Origin: Fervidicoccus fontis Kam940
Lineage (GTDB): Archaea; Thermoproteota; Thermoprotei_A; Sulfolobales; Fervidicoccaceae
Direction: 5' to 3'
Assembly (NCBI RefSeq): GCF_000258425.1
Contig: NC_017461.1
Span: 372,001 to 436,000 of the forward strand
Length of the DNA stretch: 64,000 nt
Under the pieces are notes generated by a model. That model was not told where the DNA came from, ran no database searches, and saw only the letters and a program-made list of their open reading frames with translations. The translations under genes were made by a program, and so were the position numbers. Below are positions 17,518 to 45,106 of this stretch, piece by piece (position 1 is the first letter of the stretch; each line of letters opens with the position of its first letter).

Positions 17518-17617
17518 TTTATAAAGATGGACGCTCAGGAAACTTCACATTGTATCGAGAAAATGAGTGGGTAAAGGTTTTTGAGCGTTGAGACCTCTGA
17601 AACCCTAGATGAAGCTG
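17518..17617 (+). ncRNA. Structured 100-base repeat, copy A (candidate TnpB omega-RNA scaffold)
   Basis: 98 of 100 bases identical to the minus strand of 44262-44361. It folds as one long hairpin: 17531-17537 pairs with 17582-17588, 17540-17544 with 17576-17580, and 17546-17551 with 17562-17569 around a two-base bulge, leaving a ten-base loop. The two differences between copies are at 17544, where a C-G pair becomes U-G, and at 17567, inside the bulge. The wobble is only allowed in this orientation. In the best frame both copies share the same in-frame TAA, so the unit is not a gene fragment kept for its protein. TTTATAAA at the 5' edge resembles a TATA box but would start transcription inside the 5' arm. 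Transcription is unproven. Confidence 0.55.
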
Positions 17618-17649
17618 AAGCCCCAACCCTTTAGAACAGTGTAGCTCAC
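17618..17649 (+). mobile_element. IS200/IS605-type right-end remnant
   Basis: Immediately after repeat copy A the sequence AAGCCCCAACCCTTTAGAAC continues to GTGTAGCTCAC. It resembles the right end of archaeal IS605-family elements, in which the last tnpB codons (reading ...EAEAPTL-stop here) are followed by a short palindrome and then TAGTTCAC or TAGCTCAC. The palindrome is degenerate (CAACCCT against AACAGTG). The terminal TCA is also, on the minus strand, the TGA stop codon of the membrane-anchored regulator, so the element end abuts or replaced that gene's 3' end. Confidence 0.45.
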
Positions 17650-18521
17650 TGTCCTTCTTTTAGCTTGTAATAAACCTTTCCACCAACTTCGAATTGTTCT
17701 ATGATTCCGTCTTTTTTTAGTCTATTTATTCGCCGATAAAATGCAGATCTCGGAATATTGAGTTGGTTCAGAAGATCGCCGGGAGTTATCGGTCCTTTCT
17801 CTCTAATGATTTCAACGATTTTTCTATCCCTATCATCTAAATACTTTATTTTTTCTTCTAAGCTTTTTCCTTTTTTTGGACCTCTAAAGTATAAATATCC
17901 GATAAGCAACCCTATGGCAATTAAAATAATCCCAATTATATATAAAGCATAATTGCTAATGCCTTGGTGTAATCCTGCAGTTGAAGGTGTTGTGCTCGTA
18001 AAGCCTGTTGTGTTTGTAATGTTAGCTGACTGCAGGTATGAATATGATAGTGTTATATTGCCAGGCATATATACAAAATATAATCTTCCATCCGAAGTGA
18101 CATTAAAATCGATTGGTAAGGGATTCGTTGAGAGCAAAATTGCGCCATATGGGAGAACAACGGTAGTATTAATGTCACTACTAAAGCTCACATTCCAAAT
18201 AGTTCCATTAGGATAAGCTAATTGTGAAATATATTCTAAAAGCACATTGCCAGTAAAATTATTCGGTACTAGAACTATTGTGTTATTCTCCAAGTAATAA
18301 TCAACGTTTGATGTGTTAATGTTGAGGACATATAGGCAATTTCCAATGCAATTTACAACAGAAACGTCATTTACTGGTATTACTTGTTTAATAGATGCAA
18401 TTCCATAGCTATCAATACTGATCACAGCATTTGTATAACTGGGTTCTTGTGCTATTGAAATAAAAGTAATTGAATAAATGAAAATTATAATAAACGCTAA
18501 GACAATTATTTTCTTTCTCAT
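17646..18521 (-). CDS. Membrane-anchored winged-helix transcriptional regulator
   Basis: About 291 residues from ATG 18521 (after AAGTGGT). Order of parts: a signal peptide or first membrane helix (KKIIVLAFIIIFIYSITFIS, residues about 3-25); an extracytoplasmic beta-rich region (about 30-190) with many N-x-S/T sites; one membrane helix (ALYIIGIILIAIGLLIGYLYF); a basic linker; and a cytoplasmic winged helix (DRDRKIVEIIREKGPITPGD, then LLNQLNIPRSAFYRRINRLK, then a wing GGKVYYKL). This is a one-component regulator tethered to the membrane, able to sense something outside and bind DNA inside. The gene downstream on the same strand encodes an exported coiled-coil protein, a possible target. Its stop codon coincides with a mobile-element end. 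Confidence 0.8.
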   Translation of the reverse strand: MRKKIIVLAFIIIFIYSITFISIAQEPSYTNAVISIDSYGIASIKQVIPVNDVSVVNCIGNCLYVLNINTSNVDYYLENNTIVLVPNNFTGNVLLEYISQLAYPNGTIWNVSFSSDINTTVVLPYGAILLSTNPLPIDFNVTSDGRLYFVYMPGNITLSYSYLQSANITNTTGFTSTTPSTAGLHQGISNYALYIIGIILIAIGLLIGYLYFRGPKKGKSLEEKIKYLDDRDRKIVEIIREKGPITPGDLLNQLNIPRSAFYRRINRLKKDGIIEQFEVGGKVYYKLKEGQ

Positions 18522-18672
18522 AATAACCACTTGTCTATGTCACTAAGTTGAAATTGGACACTTATTTACTATGAAAAATATTTATACTTATCTAAACTAA
18601 CATTTTATATAAAAATTAGGCGAAAAATAAATTCTTTTTCTTCTTTCGATTTCAGATGACGGGTGCTATATA

Positions 18673-43373: not shown

Positions 43374-44123
43374 ATGAAGATTATCTTAAACGATGCAAGC
43401 GATCTTAAAGATATTATAGACGTACTCGCAAAAGTAGCAGAAGAAGTTCCTTTAACTATAAGCGAAAAAGGAATTTCCAGTAAAACCTTAAGTGAAGATA
43501 AAACTACAATGAGTATCTTAGAAATACCATCTGAAATATTTAATGAATTCGAGCTTGAAGAGAATATATCATTCAGGGTAAAAATTAGAGATTTCAACAA
43601 AATACTAAAAAGAGCAACAAAAAACGATGTTTTAGAACTTTCATTGGAAAAAGATAAAGGGATTTTAAAAATCGTTTTTAAAAATTCAAAAAACGGCGCT
43701 ATTAGATCGTTTGATTTGCAGGTTTCTATAGAAAATGTAGAAGATATAGGCGAGCCCAAGGTAGATTTACCTATAGAATTTGAAATTCTAGCTGGTGATT
43801 TAAAGGATATTCTAGATGATGTCAGCAAAGTGGGAGAAGAAGTTGAATTTGAATATAAAAATTCGAGCATTGTGATTAAATCTGAAGGTCAAGGCAGAGC
43901 TTATATTGCAACTCTTACTGAAGGTAATCCTTTGATTTTATTAAAGTCTTCTGTAAGTGAAGCGAGTTCAAAATACGGTGTTGAGCTTTTATCTTCGGTT
44001 GCTAAAAAAATGGACAGTAACACTACCACAAAAGTGGCTTTTGGTTCACAACTTCCAATAAAAATACAAGTTCAATTTACACCTGGTGGATCGTTAACCT
44101 ATTGGGTCGCTCCGAGAATTTAA
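43374..44123 (+). CDS. pcn: Sliding clamp PCNA
   Basis: 249 residues, the usual length. Two repeated PCNA half-domains are visible; the first includes KIILNDASDLKDIIDVLAKV and SFRVKIRDFNKILKRATKND, the second VDLPIEFEILAGDLKDILDD and the closing TKVAFGSQLPIKIQVQF with GGSLTYWVAPRI. Crenarchaea often have three PCNA paralogues that form a heterotrimer; which subunit this is cannot be told. The protein ends without an extra PIP-box. ATG follows AGGTGA. Confidence 0.92.
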   Translation: MKIILNDASDLKDIIDVLAKVAEEVPLTISEKGISSKTLSEDKTTMSILEIPSEIFNEFELEENISFRVKIRDFNKILKRATKNDVLELSLEKDKGILKIVFKNSKNGAIRSFDLQVSIENVEDIGEPKVDLPIEFEILAGDLKDILDDVSKVGEEVEFEYKNSSIVIKSEGQGRAYIATLTEGNPLILLKSSVSEASSKYGVELLSSVAKKMDSNTTTKVAFGSQLPIKIQVQFTPGGSLTYWVAPRI

Positions 44124-44197: not shown

Positions 44198-44361
44198 TTC
44201 ATGTAACCTACTTCGCCTTAAATGATGGAGCTTTTGGTGTTCAAATAGAGCTTCACGCGCGCAGCTTCATCTAGGGTTTCAGAGGTCTCAACGCTCAAAA
44301 ACCTTTACCCATTCATTTTCTCGATACAATGTGAGGTTTCCTGAGCGTCCATCTTTATAAA
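44198..44361 (-). ncRNA. Structured 100-base repeat, copy B, with IS605-type right end
   Basis: 44262-44361 (minus) matches 17518-17617 (plus) at 98 of 100 positions and forms the same long hairpin, here with a C-G pair where copy A has U-G. Beyond the shared part the sequence differs: about 30 bases, then AAAGCTCCATCATTTAAGGC and GAAGTAGGTTACATG, again like a worn IS605 right end. The copy is 100 bases downstream of the eS1 stop on the same strand and tail-on to the PCNA gene, filling most of the 338-base gap between them. It could be transcribed by read-through from eS1. Confidence 0.5.
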
Positions 44362-44461: not shown

Positions 44462-45106
44462 TTATTGATTTGCTTTAATGCTACTTGTTATAGTAGCTTT
44501 TTCTGGGCCGTGTGGTCCTGGTATAAATAATAACTTTGATTTATATATTTCCACTTTTCTTATTGGGTAGATCTTTTTTGCCTCTGAAAATATTTCCGTT
44601 GATAAATCATTTCCGACTAATAGCTGAATAACTTCATCAAAGCTCTTCTCCTTTATCCTTTCAGTAATTATCTTTTCCATAATTTTTCTGATAGCTCTTT
44701 TTTGGCTAGTATTTGCTTTATAGGATGTGAATGTTATAGCTATAATCCTCAGCTTATAGCCATCCTTTGTCTCTACGTTAAATATTCCCTGCACTTTGCT
44801 ACTCTTTCTTCTGGTCAGAACCTTAATATAATCCCTTGCCAATTCGTGACCTTTAAATCTGGTATGTGCATTATGACCTTCAACCTTAATTATTTGGAAA
44901 TTTAGCTTTATGTGAACCTGAGTATAATCACCAGTTATGTCATAGAGAGTTGCTTCTACTGTTCTTCCAATTAATTGCTCAGGAGTTAGAGCTGGTATGC
45001 TACCTATAGAGACTTCTCCAAATACCGATGGTGCAATAACCTCATACCATTTTTTCATTTTCCAGGTTTCTTTTAATTCTCTCCTTTTCCCTTTTACAGA
45101 CGACAT
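44462..45106 (-). CDS. rps3ae: Ribosomal protein eS1 (S3Ae)
   Basis: 214 residues of the small-subunit protein eS1 (S3Ae). Characteristic parts are KKWYEVIAPSVFGEVSIGSI, TVEATLYDITGDYTQVHIKL, FKGHELARDYIKVLTRRKSS, GYKLRIIAITFTSYKANTSQ and the end KIYPIRKVEIYKSKLL. Length and order match other archaea. An upstream GGGGGAAG precedes the ATG. The order RecJ-like, Pcc1, eS1 on one strand is a known crenarchaeal neighbourhood. Confidence 0.95.
   Translation of the reverse strand: MSSVKGKRRELKETWKMKKWYEVIAPSVFGEVSIGSIPALTPEQLIGRTVEATLYDITGDYTQVHIKLNFQIIKVEGHNAHTRFKGHELARDYIKVLTRRKSSKVQGIFNVETKDGYKLRIIAITFTSYKANTSQKRAIRKIMEKIITERIKEKSFDEVIQLLVGNDLSTEIFSEAKKIYPIRKVEIYKSKLLFIPGPHGPEKATITSSIKANQ

Follow-up and report, generated by a model that had tools for sequence, protein, structure and literature searches.

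The repeat pair and the extent of the elements

The window, that is, the whole stretch of DNA analysed, comprises 64,000 nucleotides (positions 372001–436000) of the single-contig genome of Fervidicoccus fontis Kam940 (1.319 Mb, 99.9% complete). Two of its stretches, 17518–17617 on the plus strand and 44262–44361 on the minus strand, are identical at 98 of 100 positions, the mismatches being 17544 (T/C) and 17567 (G/A). This match and the absence of tnpB near the repeats, both reported in a preliminary description of the sequence, agree with the sequence comparison and with the ORF list of the window, respectively. Apart from a resemblance to IS605-type right ends, the flanks had been regarded as unrelated; this is correct for the upstream flanks, which share nothing, but the 3′ flanks are homologous through to the right terminus.

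The homology of the two copies continues past base 100 up to the right terminus in both; after 17617, 27 nt of copy 2 are missing from copy 1, and then both reach the common terminus. Since both copies start immediately after TTTAT and the homology runs to the terminus, the elements were delimited as 17523–17649 (+; copy 1, 127 nt) and 44356–44203 (−; copy 2, 154 nt), the 100-base repeats being their left parts (Table 1). Neither has a transposase or tnpB coding frame. The identity of the copies is 98% over 100 nt and drops abruptly after base 100 to 20/32 (about 63%) over the last part (Fisher p = 4e-7). Simple transposition with uniform decay does not explain this shift, which looks like a recombination or conversion boundary between copies.

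The minus-strand reading of the right terminus of copy 1 (GTGAGC) contains the TGA stop (17648–17646) of a winged-helix gene (17646–18530, −) together with the third base of its final codon, so the insertion of copy 1 set the 3′ end of this gene. Copy 2 is located between the convergent 3′ ends of a PCNA-type gene (43374–44123, +) and a ribosomal S3Ae gene (44462–45106, −).

Table 1. Features of copies 1 and 2 (window positions) and places of their relatives in the F. fontis genome (kb).
Feature	Position	Strand	Basis or remark
TTTAT target motif (TAM-type) 5′ of copy 1	17518–17522	+	TTTAT also 5′ of copies 2 and 3 and of many full-length relatives
Copy 1 left end (LE)	17523–17581	+	Aligns with LEs of copies 2–4, L088 and solitary copies in G147, G221, G125, G268 and G409
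LE palindrome of copy 1	17533–17572	+	Outer GCTCA 17533–17537 / TGGGT 17568–17572; inner hairpin decayed
Copy 1 remnant of tnpB 3′ end/omega-RNA/right end	17582–17649	+	13/33 pairs; 4.6 bits to model R1; alignment with copies 2–4
Right terminus GCTCAC of copy 1, transposon-encoded motif	17644–17649	+	Near-invariant among parental and solitary copies
TTTAT target motif 5′ of copy 2	44357–44361	−	Sequence
Copy 2 left end	44298–44356	−	Alignment with left ends of other copies
Copy 2 remnant of tnpB 3′ end/omega-RNA/right end	44203–44297	−	17/33 pairs; 29 bits to model R1
Degenerate right terminus GGTTAC of copy 2	44203–44208	−	GCTCAC in intact copies; pseudoknot broken
Copy 3	765.6 kb		
Copy 4	666.9 kb		
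Copy 5	683.9 kb		
Copy 6	857.2 kb		
L088	354.0 kb	−	
L096	114.6 kb		
L099	1101.5 kb		
Weak copy	921.2 kb		

The left end and the proposed long hairpin

The LE palindrome is found in copies 1–4 and in relatives; the counterpart in the relatives is GCCCA...TGGGC around a strong inner hairpin. A leader precedes the LE hairpin in copies 1–3; its interpretation as an insertion was dropped, as the same leader is present in LEs of G147, G221 and G125.

The preliminary description folded the repeat unit into a long hairpin, and the pairs named there can indeed be drawn on the sequence of copies 1 and 2. The stability of this hairpin, however, is no better than that of dinucleotide shuffles (z = −0.31 and −0.73). 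Its 5′ arm belongs to the LE palindrome GCTCA/TGGGT, as it does in copies throughout the phylum, and about 50 nt of copies 3 and 4 are missing from copies 1 and 2 exactly at the start of its 3′ arm (17582–17588). As this start is a deletion junction, the long hairpin is specific to copies 1 and 2, and its pairing is absent from other copies. The shuffle scores and the alignment with copies 3 and 4 led to its rejection as a conserved structure. The argument that a wobble pair reveals the strand polarity of the unit falls with it, since it rests on a structure neither conserved nor more stable than chance.

The parental tnpB family and the omega-RNA fold

Of 398 scanned genomes belonging to the phylum, 49 contain the 145-nt tail or its right end. 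Many of these 49 have a tnpB frame ('DRDLNACINIAHRVMSSMGWGSCEPPEPADVTGGVKPQ...') whose 3′ end is the tail and which is followed by the same right end (RE), and the RE of the elements is homologous to the tnpB-linked RE of these parents. Several parental-type tnpB ORFs in other genomes are intact (RuvC D, E, D); the parental full protein P0001 has 429 residues and contains PF07282. The connection with IS605 right ends, the 3′ part of tnpB and omega-RNA that the preliminary description suggested is correct. TTTAT precedes copies 1–3 and most full-length relatives as a fixed short target motif 5′ of the LE. The subterminal palindromes of IS605-type ends are present and terminal inverted repeats are absent; the RE hairpin is largely gone in copy 1. 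A comparison of the 145-nt tail with plasmid and phage collections gave no match.

An alignment of 11 tnpB-linked tails (A2) was the basis of the omega-RNA fold, which comprises stem A, stem B, a pseudoknot, stem C and a right-end hairpin. The pseudoknot is formed by the loop of stem B (GTGAGC) and the terminal GCTCAC. In these parents, 94.8% of the alignment cells are paired and two-sided changes occur at 21 of the 33 pairs; none of 500 shuffles was as good, and slid versions of the fold went down to 32–48%. The pseudoknot is paired in all 11 parents despite variation (GTGAAC/GTTCAC, GCGGGT/ACCCGC). The tail of the parental tnpB, then, folds as an omega-RNA. A nested alternative, obtained with RNAalifold from 13 right ends, pairs the terminus with a second TGAG; it was set aside in favour of the pseudoknot with the hairpin loop because the terminus shows two-sided changes. 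A search of Rfam 15 with gathering and E-value thresholds detected only a tRNA in the window, and the omega-RNA tail matches no family there. A covariance model, R1, was built from the tail and used for the genome searches.

Solitary omega-RNA copies in related archaea

Well-preserved solitary copies are scattered across many related archaea of Thermoproteota. R1 has 28 matches in G006 and four in G004, where matches of the parental TnpB are almost all confined to the tail; tblastn found no full-length cognate TnpB in the family, some of the assemblies being incomplete. Among 116 unique classified omega-RNA loci, 35 are joined to tnpB, 59 are solitary, 14 are located at contig ends and 8 are of other kinds, in a sample that is limited to loci above a score and in which G006 is over-represented. 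In 51 solitary copies from 16 genomes, tnpB homology begins 3 to 69 nt upstream of stem A. These copies fall into 19 clusters by upstream sequence, some spanning families (G147, G221, G004, G006, G138) and some unique. In none of the high-scoring solitary copies does tnpB homology extend further upstream, and their deletion stops shortly before the scaffold. Many copies contain GATGTTCC between LE and tail, which matches the tnpB start (DVP).

The fold is well kept in 37 solitary copies, with 88.0% of the cells paired and the pseudoknot paired in 98.1%, although covariation among such copies may come from their different parents. Three genomes (G409, G319 and G147) have solitary copies alongside TnpB frames with all three RuvC motifs. 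Some solitary copies of G006 (L030, L034, L106) have mismatched stem A arms from two haplotypes (CATGCC with CTCTGCGGG) and are, therefore, mosaics with a broken first hairpin.

As the omega-RNA was used for detection, shorter derivatives are under-counted. Two elements of about 95 nt in G007 (L041:2976–3033 and L093:1346–1408) have an IS605-type left hairpin and a right terminus of the same kind, and lack stem A and the pseudoknot loop; they appear to be minimal PATE-like copies. Since these two and copy 6 of F. fontis possess RE-like ends without the 5′ part of the scaffold, mobility probably does not require it.

Three nearly identical solitary copies of G268 (L183, L185, L186) share a junction 43 nt upstream of stem A and are located at different sites, which probably reflects recent movement. 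In two genomes of the same genus, both convergent genes that flank the G006 copy on contig C31 are direct neighbours and the element is missing; divergence makes the exact site unreadable. Another solitary copy of G006 (L108, contig C36) has as its neighbour a miniature IS605 element of another kind (right end GGAGGAGGTCAG).

Further copies in the F. fontis genome and decay of the fold

The repeat unit is not confined to the two copies named in the preliminary description; a search of the F. fontis genome yielded about ten relatives. In L088 (G000:C1:353962–354107, −), KDVQLTAVG from the start of tnpB runs directly into INIAHRSMSSV from its end, and this fusion gives a direct view of the internal deletion of tnpB. 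L088 is a solitary omega-RNA with 30 of 33 pairs in a genome in which no full TnpB or TnpA was found. In copy 6 (L027, about 1441–1496, G000), the reverse-oriented LE of another IS605 element directly adjoins the right-end remnant.

Counted in the same columns, 29–33 of the 33 pairs are kept in the parents, 25–31 in most solitary copies of G006, 26 in both copy 5 and L096, 20 in copy 3, 18 in copy 4, 17 in copy 2 and 13 in copy 1; by our estimate, random letters would keep about 12. Copy 1 has its stem A deleted, and its stem C is gone with the 27 nt missing after 17617. The pseudoknot retains 4/6 pairs in copy 1 and 3/6 in copy 2, compared to 6/6 in the parents. The omega-RNA fold, including the pseudoknot, is thus lost in both. 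The R1 scores of the two copies (Table 1) also indicate a decayed fold; a covariance model had been proposed in the preliminary description as a check of the fold.

Origin and status of copies 1 and 2

Copies 1 and 2 are very probably degenerate non-autonomous miniature elements of the PATE/MITE type derived from IS200/IS605. The family would have arisen by internal deletion of a tnpB-only element that inserted 3′ of TTTAT, leaving the LE palindrome, often the first tnpB codons, and the last 48 or so tnpB codons with the right end. The retained 3′ stretch of tnpB and the right end make up the part that encodes the omega-RNA scaffold. The copies presumably spread by peel-and-paste while a TnpA was present; TnpA and TnpB would since have been lost from the F. 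fontis genome, the copies decaying at different rates. The idea of a MITE-like unit moved in trans, one of two put forward in the preliminary description, is supported by the anatomy of the elements and the further copies in the genome, which has neither TnpA nor TnpB as far as detected.

Truncation of ordinary full-length elements, with copies 1 and 2 as tnpB pseudogenes and no miniature mobile family involved, is favoured by the tnpB fragments at 37 kb and 925 kb in the same genome. It is quite unlikely, since the layout of LE, short start, tail and RE recurs in about 17 genomes with many copies in each (28 omega-RNA hits in G006) and with junctions common between genomes.

The other idea of the preliminary description was that the repeats have been kept as working guide-RNA scaffolds for a TnpB whose gene is located elsewhere in the genome. 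Both copies do descend from a tail that encodes an omega-RNA, and their sister copy L088 keeps nearly all pairs. However, the pairs are lost in copies 1 and 2, with only 4.6 bits for copy 1, and the terminus GGTTAC of copy 2 breaks the pseudoknot. Searches with PF07282 and PF01385, and tblastn with the parental TnpB as query, revealed no full-length TnpB in the genome, 99.9% complete. The parental TnpB itself falls below the threshold of PF01385, which is a weak test for this reason, and the parental protein was therefore used in tblastn. Only tnpB fragments are present, including those mentioned above. No Y1 transposase (TnpA) was found in this genome either; it is present in G006 and G003. 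As neither full-length TnpB nor TnpA was found, kept guide scaffolds are rejected for F. fontis as a very improbable explanation. With no Y1 transposase, tnpB in fragments and the fold lost, copies 1 and 2 are interpreted as dead miniature elements that nothing can move or use and that would have no present-day activity.

From the near-identity of the 100-nt unit at two places and the 94–97% identity of the first 64 nt of copy 3, one might imagine a structured regulatory RNA, or a protein-binding site, that has nothing to do with transposition. This is hardly credible, because the fold of the unit is no better than shuffles, the unit matches nothing in Rfam, its first 64 nt represent an IS605-type left end and the remainder a tnpB tail, and the copies are located in unrelated intergenic contexts.

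Implications

The copies in the window are fossils, and their class matters more than the two themselves. One possibility, which we put forward tentatively and consider less probable than its negation, is that the solitary copies in relatives are guide-only selfish elements that keep LE, RE and a complete omega-RNA. Such elements would be mobilised in trans by TnpA. Their own 3′ flank would serve as the guide for a TnpB made elsewhere in the cell, which would cut the donor site once it is empty and so lead to restoration of the copy; copies 1 and 2 would be dead members of the group. Selection for this mode of propagation would account for independent deletions ending shortly before the scaffold. 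Use by TnpB in trans, excluded in practice in F. fontis, is plausible, if less likely than not, in relatives that have intact solitary copies and an intact cognate TnpB in one genome.

If a complete TnpB guide scaffold without a nuclease is kept by miniature elements across Thermoproteota, TnpB may act in trans for a whole population of guide-only elements and not just for its own element, which would change models of its role in transposon survival. It would also point to a way in which nuclease and guide come to be encoded by separate genes, as has been proposed in the origin of Cas12 systems. Moreover, the omega-RNA family is absent from Rfam 15 and comes with a testable covariance model.

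Comparison with known systems

As far as we could check, miniature elements that carry a TnpB guide scaffold without the nuclease are a new version of the PATE/MITE kind. The literature on TnpB with MITE or non-autonomous elements contained no description of archaeal solitary omega-RNA elements, which is weak evidence of novelty, as subscription papers were partly missing. Standalone omega-RNAs, guide scaffolds without a nuclease gene beside them, have been reported for IscB, which belongs to a nuclease family different from that of the TnpB elements considered here.

In Sulfolobus islandicus, TTTAT was reported 5′ of the LE of solo-tnpB elements (PMC10640517). The elements described here are similar in having TTTAT 5′ of the LE and variable sequence after the RE, but the S. 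islandicus elements encode tnpB and these do not. The omega-RNA (reRNA) of IS200/IS605 elements consists of the tnpB 3′ end and the RE, and its final bases ahead of the guide pair with the loop of a hairpin, as in ISDra2 (PMC10097598) and Halobacterium salinarum (PMC12558985). The tail resembles both of these in its loop–terminus pairing, its right-end hairpin and similar distances; unlike them, it occurs here in elements without tnpB, and its fold is lost in copies 1 and 2.

The PATEs of Haloquadratum are short and have no transposase, terminal inverted repeats or target duplication; their near-terminal palindromes are related to IS605-type transposons, and some were formed by deletion of the core (PMC3119063). 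The present elements are likewise short and transposase-free, lack terminal inverted repeats and target duplication, and have palindromic ends and an origin by core deletion. However, whereas PATEs were described as fused terminal sequences, most of the copies detected here keep the full omega-RNA scaffold, which copies 1 and 2 have lost.
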